Origin: Orenia metallireducens
GTDB taxonomy: Bacteria > Bacillota > Halanaerobiia > Halobacteroidales > Halobacteroidaceae
DNA: 44,869 nucleotides
Assembly (NCBI RefSeq): GCF_001693735.1
Contig: NZ_LWDV01000003.1
Coordinates: 1 to 44,869 of the forward strand
Reading direction: 5' to 3'
The position numbers and the translations under genes are program-made. Below, one piece after another: positions 12,469 to 44,869 of the stretch. The notes below the pieces were generated by a model that made no database searches, was not told where the DNA came from, and saw nothing but the letters and a program-made list of their open reading frames with translations. The stretch's first letter is position 1. Each line of letters opens with the position of its first letter.

Positions 12469-13464
12469 CTACATTTTAGTTAGTTTGTAATAACCACGAG
12501 CATTACTAAATTGTGCATCTGAAATAACTGTAATATCTTTATCAAATAAGTCATTTAAATCTTTTCTTAAACTTTGAGCTCCTCCACCACATAAGATAAT
12601 AAATTGAACTCTTGGCATATAATCATCCCAAGCCAACTGAACTTCATCATATATCTTCTCAGCCAATTCTCTAAATGCATCTTCACAAGGTTTCTTAATA
12701 TCATATTCTTTATTATAGAAAGTCTTATCATTCCCTTTTAGATAATCTTCTTGTATAATACCAAAAGGGATATCATCTAAAGCCGAACTAGCTATTTTAA
12801 AAGCATTAGTAGTACCTTCTTTTAGATTAATTACACTATCTGTAATAACATCTATTCCATCAGCTACAAAGGCATCTACTGTCCTTCCTCCAATATCGAT
12901 TAATCCATATCTAGCAGTTGCTAAATTATCATTCTTCATATTACCTTCCATATCAAGAAGCTCGTCATAGAATGATGCAATACCTTGAGGATAGCAAGAA
13001 ACACTATCTATATATAATTCTCTTTCTTTTCCTCCAGCTTGATATTTAATAGTTCTATTATTATATAACTCTACAATTTCATCTTTATACTTTTTAAAAG
13101 CTCCAACGTTAAGACCTAACCCTAATTGTTCAATTCTAATTTTACCATCTATTTCATCACCAAATAATAACTCTATACCAGCCAATAACTTAACTAACTC
13201 AGTATCTTCTTTAAACTTTTCATCTCTAAACTTTCTATCAGAAGAGTCTGCAGCTTGCTTGTCAGCCTTAGCACCTACATAATAGATATTACCATCTAAC
13301 TCCACAACCATATTATCAGGATTAAAAATAGACTTGCCTAAATCAAACACTTTATCCTTTCTTGGTTGATATGTACGAGAAACAAATTTAACCTTATTTT
13401 CACCAGCCTCAAACTTTTCAAAGTCAAAACCATTATCCCAACCTAATACTGGAACTACTTTCAT
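12469..13464 (-). CDS. parM: ParM/StbA-type actin-like plasmid segregation ATPase
   Basis: 331 aa, ATG after AAGGAGG. Actin-fold nucleotide-binding motifs are visible: phosphate-1 region LGWDNG (8-12), phosphate-2 region DIGGRTVD (190-197) and adenosine motif CGGGAQSL (292-299). The family polymerises into filaments that push sister plasmids apart when bound to ParR at the centromere. The gene is followed directly by the parR-like gene and preceded by a repeat-rich region with six TGTTAACA palindromes. Presence of this locus, with no integrase in the window, indicates maintenance as a low-copy plasmid. Confidence 0.88.
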   Translation of the reverse strand: MKVVPVLGWDNGFDFEKFEAGENKVKFVSRTYQPRKDKVFDLGKSIFNPDNMVVELDGNIYYVGAKADKQAADSSDRKFRDEKFKEDTELVKLLAGIELLFGDEIDGKIRIEQLGLGLNVGAFKKYKDEIVELYNNRTIKYQAGGKERELYIDSVSCYPQGIASFYDELLDMEGNMKNDNLATARYGLIDIGGRTVDAFVADGIDVITDSVINLKEGTTNAFKIASSALDDIPFGIIQEDYLKGNDKTFYNKEYDIKKPCEDAFRELAEKIYDEVQLAWDDYMPRVQFIILCGGGAQSLRKDLNDLFDKDITVISDAQFSNARGYYKLTKM

Positions 13465-15137: not shown

Positions 15138-15260
15138 AGAAGTTGATAGTCATAAATGACTAAATCTTATAAAAATTAATAACATAAGTATTTTATATTT
15201 GAAATTATTGATATTTTTGTAGAATTTGCTTATAATAAATATAGTATCAAAAAATAAAAC

Positions 15261-15388
15261 AACGGAGCTGCCAACTCCGTTTAGGTTATGGTCTCGGTCA
15301 AGACCTCATTTACTATTATTATATCAAAATTATAATATATTATACACTTGCTTGTCAAGTGTACTTGACCGAACCTGCCTAAATTTTT
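15261..15388 (+). promoter_or_regulatory. Structured leader / operator region of the plasmid initiator gene
   Basis: Several inverted repeats lie in the ~270-nt gap before the DnaD-like gene: AACGGAG/CTCCGTT (15261-15281), GGTCT/AGACC (15290-15305), ACACTTG/CAAGTGT (15344-15362), and a distant perfect 9-bp pair TCGGTCAAG (15294-15302) with CTTGACCGA (15364-15372). A TATAAT sits at 15331-15336 with no good -35. The pattern suggests either an autoregulated promoter or a folded leader that controls initiator synthesis, and hence copy number. Confidence 0.55.
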
Positions 15389-15405
15389 ATAGGGAGGTTA
15401 TTTTT

Positions 15406-16203
15406 ATGTCAGTAATTAGAGTACATAAGAGAGATAGATATGTTATAGTTGATAAAACAGGATTAGAGGATAGCAGATTATCATTTAAAGCCAAAGGTTT
15501 ACTTGCTTATCTATTAAGTAAGCCTGATAACTGGGAGGCTCAAATTGAGCATTTAAAGACCGTTAGCAAAGATGGTAGAGATTCGGTAAGAACTGGACTA
15601 AAAGAATTAGAGGATTATGGTTATTTATATAGAGCACCAGTTAAAGGGGAAGATGGTAAAATTAAATATTGGGAAAGAAATGTATATGAAACCCCAGAAT
15701 TAAATCCATATCACGAAGAAGAACCACAAACGGATAATCCGAAAGTGGATAAAAAACCAGAAACGGAAAATCCACATGTGGAAAATCCACAAGAGGAAAA
15801 TCCAACACTAATGAATAATGATTTAATAAATAATGATTTTAAAGAGGATGATGAAATAGGGGAAGAATATGAAAAAACATTTGGAAAAGCAATTGGAGAC
15901 AATAAACTTAAAATTATTAGAGCTTACCTCAAAAAGACCTCTATAGAAGTGATCAAGTATTCTTTTGTTATTGCTAGGAAAAATGGAGCAGAAACATTTA
16001 GATATGTTGTAGTGTTGCTGGAAGACTGGACAAGCAATAAGTTAGATACAGTTGAGAAAGTTAAGTTATACCTTAAAGGAGCTAAATCAGAGATTAAGGT
16101 TAATAGACCACCTTTATTTGATAGTAGCAAATATGAAGGTTCAGATGCCCCACCAGAAGATAATTATTTTGATAATATAAAAAAGATGTTAGGTAAATTA
16201 TAA
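15406..16203 (+). CDS. DnaD-like replication initiator (candidate plasmid-state Rep) with internal iterons
   Basis: 265 aa from ATG 15406 (AGGGAGG upstream); an in-frame extension to 15226 runs through the structured leader and is not protein-like. Residues 1-95 are a winged-helix domain of the replisome-organizer type (RLSFKAKGLLAYLLSKPDNW, DSVRTGLKELEDYGYL); residues ~155-225 resemble the DnaD C-terminal domain (YVVVLLEDW). Residues ~105-135 are low complexity, encoded by ~15-bp DNA repeats. The gene is apart from the lytic replication block and near parMRC, so it likely drives replication of the prophage plasmid. That division of labour is inference. Confidence 0.7.
   Translation: MSVIRVHKRDRYVIVDKTGLEDSRLSFKAKGLLAYLLSKPDNWEAQIEHLKTVSKDGRDSVRTGLKELEDYGYLYRAPVKGEDGKIKYWERNVYETPELNPYHEEEPQTDNPKVDKKPETENPHVENPQEENPTLMNNDLINNDFKEDDEIGEEYEKTFGKAIGDNKLKIIRAYLKKTSIEVIKYSFVIARKNGAETFRYVVVLLEDWTSNKLDTVEKVKLYLKGAKSEIKVNRPPLFDSSKYEGSDAPPEDNYFDNIKKMLGKL
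15732..15804. repeat. Iteron-like tandem repeats inside the DnaD-like gene
   Basis: GGAAAATCCA occurs at 15765, 15780 and 15795, exactly 15 bp apart; degenerate copies (GGATAATCCG, GGATAAAAAA) start at 15732 and 15747, also 15 bp apart. Phage replisome organizers often bind iterons embedded in their own gene, so this is a candidate origin. Confidence 0.65.
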
Positions 16204-16369: not shown

Positions 16370-16396
16370 AAAAGACTCCCTTAATTGGGAGTCTTA
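16366..16396 (-). terminator. Terminator between convergent transcripts, strong on the minus strand
   Basis: AGACTCCC-TTAATT-GGGAGTCT perfect 8-bp stem. On the minus strand it is followed by TTTTTC, on the plus strand by TTAAAATT, so it mainly ends the minus-strand operon but may work both ways. Confidence 0.75.
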
Positions 16397-16480: not shown

Positions 16481-17284
16481 TTATTTTTTATCTTCATAAG
16501 TCCAATCAATCTGTTTATTCAACACATCTTCAACTTTATTGACAGTTGTGTTAAATCTTTCGGCAATAGTATTAGTTATTTCATTCTCGTCAGGGATTTT
16601 AGAGATATCATTTTCAGCCACCTTTTTATATAACCGCTTCCAAGCACTCCACACCCTAACTTCTTGTTTAGTTAATTGGTTCGCCCAATCTTTATCTCTA
16701 AACTCATAGTTAAATTTCATCTTATTATACTGTCCTGTATCTACTGTATCTGCTTTTGACCAGTCACCTTCAGGAGCAAGCGTCGCCTTACCTAAAGTAT
16801 ACCCATTGTTAATATATTCTGGGTAGTCATAAAAGCCAATAATTAAAGCATTAAAATCATGTTCTTCTTTAACTTTTTGAGCAACAATTTTACTGATTGT
16901 TTCAAGCTCTTTGGAACCTACTGGTTCATTAACAACTACATCTACACTATATCTTTTAGCCGTACTAAAAGAATAATCCCCTATCCCATTAATACTATAA
17001 CTTATATCCTTGACTAATTCTTTTTCATCAGCTGTCACTTTTATTACATCGTTAGAAAAGAAAGAACCTATTCCAGCAAGTATAATTGATATTATAACAA
17101 TGAAACCAAAACAACCTAAGCACCCTTTTTTAGCATCTGCCACGTTTTTCTCATTAGGTTCTGTATTTTTAGTATTGTTAGAGTCATGTTCCTTATTGCT
17201 GATGTTTGTTATTTCTTCACCACATTCAGAACAAAATTTAGCTTCTTCAGATAGTTCTTTATTACATTTTGGACATTTACTCAT
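16481..17284 (-). CDS. Zinc-ribbon membrane protein with DUF4875-like domain
   Basis: 267 aa, ATG after AAAGGTGGAGAAAGG. Residues 1-25 are a double CxxC zinc ribbon (CPKC, CSEC); residues ~55-75 form one transmembrane helix; the remainder matches my memory of DUF4875 (VDVVVNEPVGSKEL, ALIIGFYDYPEYINNGYTLG, APEGDWSKADTVDTG). DUF4875 proteins are common in prophages and plasmids with unknown function. It lies at the 3' end of the minus-strand block that also encodes the SNIPE-like nuclease; a 128-nt gap separates it from the preceding gene. Confidence 0.65.
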   Translation of the reverse strand: MSKCPKCNKELSEEAKFCSECGEEITNISNKEHDSNNTKNTEPNEKNVADAKKGCLGCFGFIVIISIILAGIGSFFSNDVIKVTADEKELVKDISYSINGIGDYSFSTAKRYSVDVVVNEPVGSKELETISKIVAQKVKEEHDFNALIIGFYDYPEYINNGYTLGKATLAPEGDWSKADTVDTGQYNKMKFNYEFRDKDWANQLTKQEVRVWSAWKRLYKKVAENDISKIPDENEITNTIAERFNTTVNKVEDVLNKQIDWTYEDKK

Positions 17285-17412: not shown

Positions 17413-17721
17413 TTAATTATGTAAGTTTTCTTGATTACCAACTGTCACAATTCTATCTAATTCCTTCTCAAAGTCATCTCTACTCTTAACATTACTCAAA
17501 TCCAGCTTAATCCCGATATTTTTGCCTTCCTCAACACGTTTGATAAACTTAATCACATCTCTAATAGCTTCTGGTGATAGAGTGTCATTGTTTAGAGAGA
17601 TGTAACTGTTTGCTTTCTGTTCATCTGTTAGGCTGTTGTAAAATTCAAGAAGCTCTGGATCAGCTTGCAGTGCAGCTTTAATATTTGTATCTAGTTCTTG
17701 TAATCTTGGTCTTTTAACCAT
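17413..17721 (-). CDS. Uncharacterised small helical protein in the SNIPE-like operon
   Basis: 102 aa, ATG after AAGGAGTG. Mostly helical and acidic/polar with no membrane segment or catalytic motif. It starts 24 nt after the stop of the zinc-ribbon membrane gene, so the two are probably cotranscribed with the nuclease gene at 18217-19863. Function unknown. Confidence 0.5.
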   Translation of the reverse strand: MVKRPRLQELDTNIKAALQADPELLEFYNSLTDEQKANSYISLNNDTLSPEAIRDVIKFIKRVEEGKNIGIKLDLSNVKSRDDFEKELDRIVTVGNQENLHN

Positions 17722-17745
17722 TGGGTCACTCCTTATATTAAATCA

Positions 17746-18195
17746 TCAACTTCTAATATCAATTTTGTTTTTATCATCTTTATTTTTACTTGTATTGTTA
17801 ACTAACTCTTTTAATAATTTATTATTTATTTCAGCGTTTTTATTTAACAACACGACCTGTTCATGTAAACTAAAGAATAAGATTGAAGCCTCATAGCTTA
17901 TCCTAAGTATAATATTACCTAGAATTAAAATAACTAACTTTAGTCCCCATCCTTCTATGCTAATTCCTATAACAACTACAATAACCACAGAAATCCAATA
18001 TAAAATATCCATTAAAGCATGAGTTAAAAACTTTGTACTTTTAGCTATAGGCGGATTTGGGTCATGATTATACTCTTGTATATCTTCTAATGAATAAGGA
18101 TCTGATACCTCAGCATAGCAATAAGGACATTCTTTCTTTTCTAAAAATACTTCGGTTAATCTTATAGGTTTTTTACAACTAGGGCATTTTTTCAT
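17746..18195 (-). CDS. Zinc-ribbon, two-TM membrane protein in the SNIPE-like operon
   Basis: 149 aa, ATG after AAAGGAGTG. Residues 1-28 hold two CxxC pairs (CPSCKK, CPYCYA), a zinc ribbon; residues ~62-105 form two hydrophobic segments; the C-terminal 40 residues are polar and helical. It begins 21 nt downstream of the nuclease gene stop, indicating one operon. Could be an accessory or regulatory partner of the membrane nuclease; no direct evidence. Confidence 0.55.
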   Translation of the reverse strand: MKKCPSCKKPIRLTEVFLEKKECPYCYAEVSDPYSLEDIQEYNHDPNPPIAKSTKFLTHALMDILYWISVVIVVVIGISIEGWGLKLVILILGNIILRISYEASILFFSLHEQVVLLNKNAEINNKLLKELVNNTSKNKDDKNKIDIRS

Positions 18196-18216: not shown

Positions 18217-19863
18217 TTACAAAGCAGCTGGAAATTTTTCTTTTATTTTTTGTTCCAATTCTTTTTTATTCTTTCTTTCATTTCTTATAGCTATTGATTC
18301 TCGATATTCTTGAGCTTCTGGAATTTTTACAAACTCTATTTCTGGATTGATTTTACTAACGATGTCTTCTATCTTCTCTAATGAAACATTGAAAAATTCT
18401 TTTCTAGAGTTAACTAAATTTACTTGATAAGCTTCAAGTTTTTTATGTAATTTTCTTTCCAGTTCTGGAGCATTTTCCGAATATATCATGGCATGAACAT
18501 CAAATTTGAATGGTACAGAAGCATCTCCTAGTTCACGTACACGGTCAAGCGGTTCTAAACGTCTAGTCATACCAATTTTATAAATATTCTCACCGAAAGA
18601 ACCTATATTTGATATTATATAAACATAACCCGATTTTGTAATTTGAGCGCGGGATATAGCTCTTTGTCCTTTGTCTTGAGCATCTTTTAATTGCTTTTCT
18701 AATAAAGTTATTTGTTCTGTTAATTTATTTAATTTTTCACCTTGGGCTTTTGTTATTTCTTTTCTTGCTTTTTCTAGTGCTTTTTTATATCTTTTTTCTT
18801 CCTTTTCAGCTTCTTTTTTAGCTTTTTCTATTTCTTTTTCAACTCTTTTTTGTTCGCGGATTTCTTCTTTTATACGTTTTTTCTCTTCTTTTTCTTGATA
18901 TAATTTTTCTTGACGTTCATAAACTAAATATAGTTCTTGAAGTTTTAGGTTTAAGTAATCATGGGAAATAGAAACTCTAATGGGTTCTCCTAATTTATTT
19001 ATTGCTTGGTGAGCTTTTTTAATTCTCTGTTCCATTTTCTGAACATTATTCCACTTAACTTTAGCAATAGAGGCGTCACATTCATTATTAAAAGCACGTA
19101 ATATCAATTTAATATTTCTATTAATCATTTTCTTACCTTCGCGTTTACTTCCAGCGACCTCCCATTGAGTATAGCAAATAGCTGCATTTTTATTTTTAAT
19201 TAATTGTTTTTGCTGAGATCTTATAGATTTGATTTTAGTTTTATATTTTTCTGACGTATCAAAATCAAAATGTGGTTTATACATACCGAATGAAATTAAT
19301 TCTAAGTCTTCTTCCAAAATACTTATTTCTTTTAACAATTGTTCATATATATGCCTTTTATTAGAATATTGATTTTTTAAATCAGATTCTTTTCTTTGGT
19401 ACTCAGATTCCATTTTTTCATAACTTTGTTTTTTGTTTTGCAGTTCTTTTTCTAATTTTTTAGCCTCTTTTTCTATATCAATAACATCTTTGAATTTATT
19501 ATATAGTTTTTTGTGCTTTATTGATTTTTGAATAAAGAGAAAAACAAATAAAATCAATAATATAGTGCTTATGATCAAAAATGATAAATATGTATTATTT
19601 TGAATACCTGGAGTTAGGGTGTTTTTTTGTACTACTTCCTTTTGTGTTGTTTTAACAGTATTTTTAATAGGAGTTGGGGTTATTATAGCTATTAAAACAA
19701 AAGAAGCTATTAATATAATTCCATAGGTTTTAATTACATTTTTTCTAGTTTTATTTTCTTCTTTTCCCCATTTTATGACCCATCTGGGCTTAATAAGACC
19801 TATTGGAATGGCTATGATAGAAAGTAAGAATATAACAACGAATATATTACTTAATAATTCCAA
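18217..19863 (-). CDS. SNIPE-like membrane-anchored DUF4041 / GIY-YIG (MUG113) anti-phage nuclease
   Basis: 548 aa, TTG start after AAGGAGGG. Three hydrophobic segments (about 6-24, 47-63, 92-112) anchor the N-terminus. A coiled coil follows (128-185), then a DUF4041 region (~187-292, with YKPHFDFDTSEKYK and AICYTQWEV), a second charged coiled coil (~315-405) and a C-terminal GIY-YIG domain of the T5orf172/MUG113 type: GYVYI 412-416, YKIG 428-431, Arg441/Arg443, Glu467/Glu469, His473 and NSRKEFF 485-491. This order equals that of SNIPE, an E. coli membrane nuclease that cuts phage DNA during injection. Here it would defend the lysogen. Its minus orientation beside the repressor suggests lysogenic expression. 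Confidence 0.75.
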   Translation of the reverse strand: MELLSNIFVVIFLLSIIAIPIGLIKPRWVIKWGKEENKTRKNVIKTYGIILIASFVLIAIITPTPIKNTVKTTQKEVVQKNTLTPGIQNNTYLSFLIISTILLILFVFLFIQKSIKHKKLYNKFKDVIDIEKEAKKLEKELQNKKQSYEKMESEYQRKESDLKNQYSNKRHIYEQLLKEISILEEDLELISFGMYKPHFDFDTSEKYKTKIKSIRSQQKQLIKNKNAAICYTQWEVAGSKREGKKMINRNIKLILRAFNNECDASIAKVKWNNVQKMEQRIKKAHQAINKLGEPIRVSISHDYLNLKLQELYLVYERQEKLYQEKEEKKRIKEEIREQKRVEKEIEKAKKEAEKEEKRYKKALEKARKEITKAQGEKLNKLTEQITLLEKQLKDAQDKGQRAISRAQITKSGYVYIISNIGSFGENIYKIGMTRRLEPLDRVRELGDASVPFKFDVHAMIYSENAPELERKLHKKLEAYQVNLVNSRKEFFNVSLEKIEDIVSKINPEIEFVKIPEAQEYRESIAIRNERKNKKELEQKIKEKFPAAL

Positions 19864-19963
19864 TATTAACCCTCCTTAATTATGTAAGTTATATCATTGA
19901 TATATTTCGACAATTACCGACAATGTGTAAATATAGAAAATATATCTTATCTATGTTAAAAAT

Positions 19964-19988
19964 AAAGAAGGACAACTTGTCCTCTTTA
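19964..19988 (-). terminator. Minus-strand terminator after the coiled-coil gene
   Basis: AAAG.AGGACAA/TTGTCCT.CTTT stem-loop just downstream of the 19993-20268 gene, with a T-rich tail on the minus strand. It separates that gene from the nuclease operon, which therefore probably has its own promoter in 19864-19960, where CGACAAT occurs twice. Confidence 0.65.
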
Positions 19989-19992
19989 TTGA

Positions 19993-20268
19993 CTATTTAA
20001 TCAGTTTTAACTTTGCTATATCATAAAGGTTCTCTTTGGTAACTGCTTCAATAGCACCTATCTTCTCAACTACAGTATCAAGTTTATTATTAGTTTCAGT
20101 CTTAAACTCTTTTAAATCGACAGTTTGTTCTACTACTGAATCAAGTTTATTTTCTATATTAGCTTGATTATCTTTAAGCTCTCCTTGCCCAGCTTCCAAC
20201 TTATCTAACCTTTGATTAACACTTTGTAATTCTTTTAATATTTGCTGTAAGACTTCTTGATTTTCCAT
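19993..20268 (-). CDS. Small coiled-coil protein
   Basis: 91 aa, ATG after AAGGAGG. Almost entirely coiled coil with repeats of the form NQxLDKLE, ENKLDSVVEQ and NNKLDTVVEK. Similar small coiled-coil proteins of unknown function are common next to repressors in Firmicute prophages. It lies between the repressor gene and the nuclease operon and has its own terminator. Confidence 0.55.
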   Translation of the reverse strand: MENQEVLQQILKELQSVNQRLDKLEAGQGELKDNQANIENKLDSVVEQTVDLKEFKTETNNKLDTVVEKIGAIEAVTKENLYDIAKLKLIK

Positions 20269-20361: not shown

Positions 20362-20991
20362 CTATTCAAATTTAAATTTAACTTCAACAACTTTACCTAT
20401 TATTCTAACATTTCCTTCACATAATTGTATTGGTTTATATCTAGGGTTTTCCGGTTGCAATATTATTTTGTTATCAGTTTTATAAATCCTCTTTAAGGTT
20501 GCCTCATCATTAACCATTACAACTGCTATTTCTCCATTTTCTATATCCTCTTGCTGTCTAACTAATACTAAGTCTCCTTCATAAATCCTTGCCCCGACCA
20601 TGGAATCACCTTGAGCTTTTAGGTAGAAATATGTGCCGCCATTGATAGAATTTTTGTCAACTAGCTCATATCCTATAATATTTTCCTCGGCTAATAAAGG
20701 TATCCCACAAGACACGCAACCTACAATTGGTATCTTAACCATATCATCAGGATTGATTATCTGTGCATTTTCGGGCAATTTATCTCTAAAATTGACTCTT
20801 CCTAGGAGGTAATCTGTATTAACATTATAATAATTAGCTGCTTTTTCTATAAACTCCGAATCTGGCTTTCTTTTATTATTCTCATATCTAGATAAAGTAT
20901 TTTTATTAACATCTAAATTTTCTGCGGCTTCTCTTATATTTAATCCTTTTTGGTTTCTTAATTCCCTCAATCTGTCTCCTAATGTATTCAT
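20362..20991 (-). CDS. CI-type repressor: HTH_XRE plus S24 autoprotease
   Basis: 209 aa, ATG after AAAGGAGG. Residues 7-62 are an XRE helix-turn-helix (NIREAAENLDVNKNTLSRYE). Residues ~88-205 are a LexA/CI S24 peptidase domain with Cys95-Gly96 as the expected self-cleavage bond, Ser130 (QGDSM) as nucleophile and Lys167 (ATLKRIY) as general base, so SOS-triggered inactivation is expected. It is divergent from the Cro-like gene across a 149-bp operator region. It is the likely lysogeny repressor of this element. Confidence 0.9.
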   Translation of the reverse strand: MNTLGDRLRELRNQKGLNIREAAENLDVNKNTLSRYENNKRKPDSEFIEKAANYYNVNTDYLLGRVNFRDKLPENAQIINPDDMVKIPIVGCVSCGIPLLAEENIIGYELVDKNSINGGTYFYLKAQGDSMVGARIYEGDLVLVRQQEDIENGEIAVVMVNDEATLKRIYKTDNKIILQPENPRYKPIQLCEGNVRIIGKVVEVKFKFE

Positions 20992-42673: not shown

Positions 42674-44869
42674 ATGGGTTTTGGTAATTTAGGAACAGTC
42701 TGGGCTGAAATGGGTTTGAAATACTCTAAATTACAAAAAGGTTTTAAACAAGTTAAAACAGAGATTAAAACTAATGAGAAGAGTATTCAAAAATCATTAA
42801 CTAAGCTTGGAGGAATGGCAACCAATGTAGGGACTACTATGTCGATGACTTTAACCGCTCCCCTTTCTGCTTTAGGCGGACTGATGATAAAGGCGGCCTC
42901 TGATGCTCAGGAGACACAAGGACAGTTTGATCAAGTCTTTGGTGAGATATCTAAAAGTGTTAATGTATGGGCAAATCAATATGCTGATGATATAGGAAGA
43001 TCTAGAACCCAAATTAAAGAGTTTGCATCAGGATTACAAGATACTTTTGTTCCTTTGGGTTTTGCTAGGGACCAAGCTGCTCGATTATCTCAGAATTTAG
43101 TGCAGCTAGGTGTTGATGTTGCTAGTTTTAAAAATAAAGCTGATTCTAAAGTTATAGATGATTTTAATTCTGCTTTAGTTGGTAATCATGAAACTGTAAA
43201 GAAATACGGGATTATAATTAATGAGTCTAGGTTAAAATCAGAGGCCTATAAACAAGGAATTGCAGAGGTTGGAGCAGAGCTAACAGATCAACAGAAGGTT
43301 TTAGCAAGATATAGTATCATTGTTAATTCAACTAAAGATGCTCAAGGTGATGCTAGCCGCACAAGTGGAAATTTTGCTAATGTGCTAAAAAGGTTCAAAG
43401 GGGAACTTAGAAATACAGCTGAGGTTATGGGAAAAGAAATGCTCCCAATGGCAACTAAAATTATTAAGAAATTAACTAATCTAACTAAATGGTTTGGAGG
43501 ATTATCTCCAGTAGTTAAAAAAACTCTATTGATATTTGGTGGTCTAGTTACTGTACTTGGTCCAGTGATTACAATCATAGGTGTTATGGTTGGGGCAATA
43601 GGTAACTTAATACCTGTATTAAGTGCTGTGTGGAGTTGGTTGAGTACTACTACAGTAGCTATTGGAGGAATGACAACACCAATCGGTTGGGTTATTGCTG
43701 CTGTTATAGCCTTTGCTGCAGCTTGGAAAGGTAACTTCTTAGGACTACGAGATGTTACAAAAGCAATGATTAAAGAAGTTGCTGGTATGATGGGGGGACT
43801 GTGGAAGTTACTAAAAGGTGATTTTAAAGATGGGTTAGCACAGATTAGAGATTCTTTTAATACAGGCGGCGAAGAAATAACAACAGCCATAACCTCAGGT
43901 TTTAAAGATACATTTTCTAAAGCAAAGGATCTTGTTCAAAAATCTTTTGGCAGTGAAATAGCCCATGCAGCAGATAAAGGAGCAGAAGAGGCTAAACCAG
44001 ATATTGAAGCAAAAGGTAAAGAAATCGCTGAAAGTTTTAATTATGGTTTAACTGAAGAAATGAAGAAATTAGTATTTTCTAAATTAGGAGATACTGTTGG
44101 AGGAGCTTTTGATGATGCTTTAAGTAATTTTGATTATAAAGTCGATATGGGAGAGTTAAACACTAGAGAGCAGATTGTAGGGTTACAAAAAATTAGAGAT
44201 GAACTTGCAGAAAATGAAGAACAAGAAAGAGAAGCAAATGTAAGAATTTATGAACTTAAAAAACAGTTATTTAATGAAGTATTAGATCAATATGAAGAAG
44301 ATGTATCTAAGCAACAATTATCAACTGCTGAAAAGATTAAACTTCTTCAAGAAGAAGTCAAATATTATGCTATTACAGCTGATCAAAAGAAGGCTATTGA
44401 AGAAGAGATTTTAAATCTTAAACGTCAACAGGCAGAAGAAGAAAAGAGACTTGCGTCTAATCGCTATAATTTCCTTTTAAAGCTTGGTCAAATAGATTTA
44501 AAAGAACATAGAAAAAGGTTACAAAACCAACTTAAAGGGGTTAAAAAATATAGTGATGAGTGGATTAGGTTACAAGGACAGATTGCTGATACTAGACTCA
44601 AAATGTTTGATCAGATAGTAAAAAAAGATAATTTATCAACTGAAGAGCAGATTAATAACATCAATAAGATTTTACAGACTGAAAAATTAGCTACAGAAGA
44701 AAAGATTAGATTGCAAGAAAGATTAAATAAATTAAGACAAAAACGAAATAGTTCAAAAAAATCAAATAATCCAAAGAATAAAACTGATCAAAATATCAGT
44801 AAACTAGAGTTAGCATTTAATACATTTACAGAAAAATTTCAAGATTTATTATCTTCTTATAACCCACAA
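42674..44869 (+). CDS. Tail tape measure protein, N-terminal part (continues at base 1)
   Basis: 732 codons, ATG after GAGGGGGTGA, open to the last base. N-terminal region resembles the TP901-type tape measure core (LGGMATNVGTTMSMTLTAPL, DTFVPLGFARDQAARLSQNL, DFNSALVGNHETVKKYGI). Residues ~290-355 are strongly hydrophobic; ~500-720 are long coiled coils. Joined across the ends with 1-843 the protein is 1012 aa, a normal length for a siphophage tail. A long minus-strand ORF inside it (43342-43890) is only its antisense shadow. Confidence 0.9.
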   Translation, partial: MGFGNLGTVWAEMGLKYSKLQKGFKQVKTEIKTNEKSIQKSLTKLGGMATNVGTTMSMTLTAPLSALGGLMIKAASDAQETQGQFDQVFGEISKSVNVWANQYADDIGRSRTQIKEFASGLQDTFVPLGFARDQAARLSQNLVQLGVDVASFKNKADSKVIDDFNSALVGNHETVKKYGIIINESRLKSEAYKQGIAEVGAELTDQQKVLARYSIIVNSTKDAQGDASRTSGNFANVLKRFKGELRNTAEVMGKEMLPMATKIIKKLTNLTKWFGGLSPVVKKTLLIFGGLVTVLGPVITIIGVMVGAIGNLIPVLSAVWSWLSTTTVAIGGMTTPIGWVIAAVIAFAAAWKGNFLGLRDVTKAMIKEVAGMMGGLWKLLKGDFKDGLAQIRDSFNTGGEEITTAITSGFKDTFSKAKDLVQKSFGSEIAHAADKGAEEAKPDIEAKGKEIAESFNYGLTEEMKKLVFSKLGDTVGGAFDDALSNFDYKVDMGELNTREQIVGLQKIRDELAENEEQEREANVRIYELKKQLFNEVLDQYEEDVSKQQLSTAEKIKLLQEEVKYYAITADQKKAIEEEILNLKRQQAEEEKRLASNRYNFLLKLGQIDLKEHRKRLQNQLKGVKKYSDEWIRLQGQIADTRLKMFDQIVKKDNLSTEEQINNINKILQTEKLATEEKIRLQERLNKLRQKRNSSKKSNNPKNKTDQNISKLELAFNTFTEKFQDLLSSYNPQ

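Follow-up and report, generated by a model that had tools for sequence, protein, structure and literature searches.

A reading frame of 548 codons in Orenia metallireducens, lying on contig NZ_LWDV01000003.1 (the window, i.e. the whole 44,869 bp stretch that was analysed), raises two questions: whether its product is a membrane nuclease of the SNIPE type, and what the additional membrane segments at its N-terminus represent. SNIPE, described in 2026, tells phage DNA from self DNA by the site of entry into the cell, and its N-terminus has been proposed to act as an adapter (PMC13190303). Carriage of SNIPE by phages and the variability of its N-terminus are already known.

Identity and fold of the encoded protein

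The initial annotation, in which the strand of the reading frame (minus) was not given, described N-terminal membrane segments, a coiled coil, DUF4041 and a GIY-YIG/MUG113 domain. The corresponding features are as follows.

18217-19863, minus strand: SNIPE/PD-Lambda-1 homologue, 548 aa, TTG start (PADLOC, phrog_1847, BLASTP)
19531-19587, minus strand: third transmembrane (TM) segment, TM3, residues 93-111, counterpart of the single TM of SNIPE (the BLASTP alignment begins at residue 96 of the window protein and residue 6 of the PhiR26_1 protein)
18943-19110, minus strand: DUF4041, residues 252-307 (Pfam PF13250, E=2.6e-24)
18349-18630, minus strand: GIY-YIG nuclease domain, residues 412-505 (T5orf172 PF10544 / MUG113 PF13455)

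The PADLOC profile for PD-Lambda-1, which is the earlier name of SNIPE, was matched with E=1.4e-180 (residues 116-542 of the protein, positions 45-485 of the 491 in the profile), and phrog_1847 with E=4.7e-165 (residues 55-534); the PADLOC identifiers for the family are PDLC03976/PDLC03977. In Pfam, T5orf172 was matched over residues 412-505 (2.7e-18) and MUG113 over residues 428-505 (4.7e-20). The GIY-YIG residues Tyr415, Tyr428, Arg441 and Glu469 are intact and invariant across 56 homologues, and the 'KIG' and 'RKEFF' positions are likewise where the initial annotation had placed them, together with Arg441 and Glu469.

The best match among phage records was a 500 aa protein named 'PD-lambda-1' from the E. 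coli phage PhiR26_1, with residues 96-534 of the window protein aligned to its residues 6-479 (48% identity and 69% positives over 475 aligned positions). This protein has the length of SNIPE, and its E414, W257, N250 and L253 stand at the numbers used in the SNIPE paper (PMC13190303); hence, it is either SNIPE itself or a protein numbered alike. Glu469 of the window protein aligns with E414 of SNIPE. As judged by these sequence comparisons, the reading frame encodes a full-length SNIPE/PD-Lambda-1 homologue, and the earlier assignment to SNIPE on the basis of domain order is upheld by the PADLOC match and by the identity to the PhiR26_1 protein.

An AlphaFold2 model built on the alignment of 56 sequences (mean pLDDT 79, pTM 0.53) includes helices at residues 2-23 and 36-61 and a long helix at 91-191, followed by the DUF4041 region (pLDDT mostly >90), helices at 301-372/376-410 and an alpha/beta nuclease. 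The stretches 19-36 and 62-91 were poorly predicted, with pLDDT <50 at 62-91. The two long coiled coils noted earlier correspond to the helices at 91-191 and 301-410, and the remaining domains of the initial description were recovered by hydropathy, AlphaFold2 and Pfam. No solved structure was matched by sequence. Foldseek returned only weak matches to Slx1 (GIY-YIG) from the PDB, and T5orf172 proteins with one partial SNIPE-like 'helicase' from a viral library; the structure therefore contributes little over the sequence.

The window protein thus resembles E. coli SNIPE in the order of its parts (TM anchor, coiled coil, DUF4041, long helix, GIY-YIG), in the catalytic Arg and Glu and in belonging to a family that occurs in temperate phages. 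It differs from E. coli SNIPE in having 92 extra residues at the N-terminus, which add two TM segments, in being carried by a phage-plasmid and in having a host that lacks the ManZ partner family.

The phage-plasmid and the genes around SNIPE

The window, which is also listed as IMG/VR UViG 2524614533_000001, encodes terminase, portal, head, tail tube and endolysin proteins in addition to the following.

12469-13464, minus strand: actin-like (ParM-type) partition protein (phrog_691, 2.4e-44; NCBIfam ParM, 1e-15, below cut-off)
15226-16203, plus strand: replication initiator, DnaD-like (phrog_186, phrog_428)
42674-44869, plus strand: first part of the tape-measure gene, its frame open to the contig end and resuming in phase at positions 1-843 of the window

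The frame at 22-843 matches tape-measure families, and since one reading frame crosses both ends, the contig is most likely a circle cut within the tape-measure gene. No overlap was found between its terminal sequences. Neither a tyrosine nor a serine recombinase was found on this contig in a search of the host assembly. Carriage by a phage-plasmid, as initially proposed, is therefore well supported at the level of gene content, by virion genes together with partition and initiator genes, the lack of an integrase and the tape-measure frame running across the ends.

The SNIPE gene is accompanied by the following features, in the order of transcription.

20362-20991, minus strand: CI-like repressor (HTH and S24), upstream of SNIPE (Pfam 9.3e-32 and 2.5e-15; phrog_4)
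19993-20268, minus strand: 91-aa coiled-coil-like protein between the repressor and SNIPE (translation; phrog_5553)
19968-19984, minus strand: hairpin resembling a terminator, located behind the repressor-side gene and ahead of SNIPE
19930-19959, minus strand: weak promoter-like site before SNIPE, TTAACA-18-TATATT, 10/12
17746-18195, minus strand: 149-aa protein, zinc-ribbon-like by its two CxxC pairs and with about two TM segments, separated from SNIPE by 21 bp on the downstream side (translation)
17413-17721, minus strand: 102-aa protein, 24 bp beyond the 149-aa gene (translation)
16481-17284, minus strand: zinc-ribbon, TM and DUF4875 protein, the final gene of the SNIPE run (Pfam PF13240, PF16175; C-terminal part of phrog_28655)
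16372-16395, minus strand: intrinsic terminator ending the SNIPE gene run (9-bp stem, 5 GC pairs, T tail)

The location on the repressor side that had been claimed is confirmed, SNIPE lying downstream of the CI-like repressor on the same strand, and expression from that side is supported by orientation and gene order. Promoter matches in the region (33) were not in excess of those in shuffled sequence (30.0). The same placement was sought among 81 relatives, i.e. non-redundant clusters with at least 2 kb available on either side. In 23 of these, a repressor-like ORF lay upstream on the same strand at a distance of up to 2 kb, in one it lay upstream on the opposite strand, and in none was it downstream; the counts, obtained with the window's own two repressor-like proteins as queries, are lower bounds. 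Placement on the repressor side is thus a feature that the family shows repeatedly in temperate elements, and this gene order fits expression in the lysogen. The case provides a record of SNIPE as cargo of a phage-plasmid, encoded on the repressor side.

SNIPE and the three genes downstream are separated by gaps of 21, 24 and 128 bp, and two of the three encode zinc-ribbon-like membrane proteins. The 149-aa protein, for which no family was matched in Pfam, PADLOC or NCBIfam, probably shares the SNIPE operon, and the 102-aa protein had no match in PADLOC or PHROG. As the genes at 17413-18195 are not conserved beside other SNIPEs, there is no sign of an obligatory partnership. The DUF4875 neighbour had no match when searched in phages.

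Proposed role in superinfection exclusion

The SNIPE orthologue is probably a lysogenic-conversion gene of the phage-plasmid, serving superinfection exclusion by cutting incoming phage DNA at the membrane, a role suggested by its family and by its placement. The protein would be anchored in the lysogen's cytoplasmic membrane, its DUF4041 and GIY-YIG nuclease domains facing the cytoplasm. It would engage the tape measure and the DNA of an incoming siphovirus where these enter the cell, and would cleave this DNA before it could become established. Tethering to the membrane would spare the resident DNA. Contact with the tape measure and cutting during injection are extended here to the window protein by analogy with its relatives.

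In SNIPE, defence is abolished by the E414A substitution or by deletion of DUF4041 (PMC13190303). A PD-Lambda-1 of Streptococcus thermophilus confers >3-log protection (PMC12322248), and PD-Lambda-1 of S. thermophilus EU01, placed in the same family by name, is a Gram-positive example with protection against phages of several genera (PMC12322248). Homologues that are 98.5% identical can range from inactive to >3-log protection (PMC12322248), and hence sequence cannot tell whether a given copy is active.

The ManZ family EIID (PF03613) was not found in the host genome, the controls (E. coli, B. subtilis and L. lactis) being positive. Recruitment of the ManYZ type as in E. coli is therefore not available. 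As defence independent of ManYZ has been documented (PMC13190303) and ManYZ is a feature of the E. coli SNIPE, this absence was not counted against membership of the family.

A role in housekeeping rather than defence, with the protein handling DNA at the membrane for replication or partition of the phage or plasmid, would accord with the names 'chromosome segregation ATPase' and 'helicase' given to relatives in phage records, with a weak match to the SMC coiled coil and with the element being a plasmid that has its own partition gene. However, the SMC match covers the coiled coil only and scores 18 bits where the cut-off is 567, and the partition protein is encoded separately on the element. 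SNIPE homologues are moreover found not only in plasmids but also in prophages and chromosomes, none of the catalytic residues has been lost, and defence by the family has been shown in both E. coli and S. thermophilus (PMC13190303, PMC12322248). Housekeeping is thus considered improbable, and superinfection exclusion is the role preferred for the window protein.

The two-TM module ahead of the SNIPE anchor

Three TM segments were predicted by hydropathy, at residues 6-24, 43-61 and 93-111. As the third is the counterpart of SNIPE's own TM, residues 1-92 are, relative to SNIPE, an addition, and about the first 65 of them form a two-TM module according to the sequence matches given below. The initial remark that three segments go beyond a minimal anchor was therefore correct, TM3 being SNIPE's own anchor and TM1-TM2 an added portable module.

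19681-19848, minus strand: added two-TM module, residues 6-61, consensus GLIKPxxVIxWG..TR..V...YG (match to profile A1, 8.8e-23)
19588-19680, minus strand: linker, residues 62-92, which by prediction lies outside the membrane (pLDDT <50 at 62-91; loop charges)

That the true gene begins at TM3, with the N-terminal part untranslated in a decayed or misstarted copy, might be thought from the TTG start and from the presence of two more TTG codons, those of residues 96 and 103. However, an ideal Shine-Dalgarno sequence, AAGGAGG, precedes the first TTG (AAGGAGGGTTAATA-TTG), and none was found before the later in-frame start-like codons (TTG 96, TTG 103 and ATG 151). There are no stops or frameshifts, and the upstream frame encodes a module that is conserved elsewhere; in its other carriers the module starts directly behind their own Met, with the same spacing. 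The TTG start is therefore sound, and a misstart or decay is very improbable.

The loop at residues 25-42 of the module contains seven K/R and two D/E, in agreement with the positive-inside rule. The N-terminus of SNIPE was located outside with PhoA-LacZ fusions (PMC13190303), and addition of a TM pair leaves the topology as it was before, which suits an N-out, C-in protein such as SNIPE. The window protein is thus predicted to have its N-terminus outside and its C-terminus in the cytosol. Its front would consist of TM1 and TM2, joined by a positively charged loop in the cytoplasm, and of an outside linker of ~30 residues, with TM3 and the cytosolic part keeping the topology of SNIPE.

Among 474 SNIPE homologues, 0, 1 or 2 TM segments have been reported, 59% having one and 7% two (PMC13190303). 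By hydropathy, 111 clusters of homologues examined here had none (47 clusters), one (55) or two (7); three segments were present in the window protein alone and four, arranged differently, in one homologue (L066). In this homologue (L066 5713-7419), a CxxC region of zinc-ribbon-like appearance follows the four hydrophobic segments; like the window protein, it exceeds the reported range of 0-2 TM.

A search of related genomes with the whole protein revealed that residues 4-82 match otherwise unrelated proteins. The profile made from the collected copies spans 54 positions, with Gly17, Pro21, Trp27, Arg35 and Tyr42 invariant; an apparent copy in an aminotransferase-like ORF (L116/L122) was regarded as spurious and kept out of it. 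Pfam has no family for the module, and no copy was found on the remaining 110 of the 111 SNIPE clusters, in plasmids or, searched with close peptides, in IMG/VR. Genomes with the module number 7 of 59 in the class and 9 of 398 in a sample of the phylum.

One carrier is ZorA in a congeneric genome (L120 5469-7565), where ZorB, ZorC and ZorD lie alongside and make up a complete Zorya type I system. In both SNIPE and ZorA the module directly precedes the first TM region of the protein itself; ZorA is otherwise an unrelated MotA-like motor. This Zorya I system adjoins a DUF1156 methyltransferase, a PLD helicase and a DUF3780 gene, and the locus (L120 661-14704; genome G001, contig 26) is a defence island in the congener. 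Further carriers are a TPR protein, several short proteins and one protein with a C-terminal copy, and some carriers have no known defence role. A separate protein (L124 4559-5191, = L107) consists solely of three tandem copies of the module.

In phages, ORF47 of the Vibrio phage VHML (L153 1962-2690; phrog_3403, function unassigned) begins with the module in a clear match. Orf97 of phage 186 (L161 2447-3178), which is 44% identical to VHML ORF47, has it at the N-terminus in a match that is weak when taken alone. The phage 186 record states of Orf97 that 'expression from plasmid blocks 186 infection', and no mention of Orf97 was found in the literature searched. While they share the module with the window SNIPE, these two proteins have two TMs only, no nuclease domain and an unrelated C-terminal domain.

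None of the class-preserving shuffles (5000 each) attained the real module score. VHML ORF47 and 186 Orf97, neither of which is in the profile, scored 45.9 and 24.4 bits as compared with shuffle maxima of 16.7 and 15.3. Among 5698 ORFs (375 distinct with a two-TM stretch), all matches with E<0.001 were module carriers, the weakest being L114 (2.7e-4). An independent profile, phrog_28655, also joins the N-termini of the window protein (0.004), ZorA (3e-5) and VHML ORF47 (1.6e-8). What is new here is an uncatalogued two-TM module fused ahead of the anchor of SNIPE, and the sharing of this module by SNIPE, ZorA and an exclusion-type phage protein.

The module may give SNIPE a different membrane partner or location. 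On a broader reading, it is a portable address or sensor that sends unrelated anti-phage proteins (SNIPE, ZorA and 186 Orf97) to a shared site in the envelope, or a shared partner, that phage DNA uses on entry, the range of targets being changed by a swap of the front end; this is regarded as rather unlikely. Somewhat better than an even chance is given to the module being a generic anchor captured by chance, so that SNIPE works alike with or without it, which is compatible with superinfection exclusion. Such an anchor would be consistent with the presence of the module on the TPR protein, the short proteins and the tandem triplicate, none with a known link to defence, with SNIPE having a TM of its own and with the 47 of 111 clusters in which no TM is apparent by hydropathy. 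On the other hand, a second anchor would be redundant, a plain hairpin would have no need of invariant Gly, Pro, Trp, Arg and Tyr residues, and the module recurs on ZorA and 186 Orf97. Given the several carriers without a link to defence, the plain anchor is slightly favoured over a new partner.

A complete SNIPE with its own anchor and a second membrane module is a direct case of an adapter-like addition at the N-terminus, and the module offers a concrete object for testing where membrane defences are placed.

The remainder of phrog_28655 matches the DUF4875 gene, which is the third gene downstream of SNIPE. The two-TM module and the region of the DUF4875 protein are thus united in one profile, and their pairing may exceed chance.
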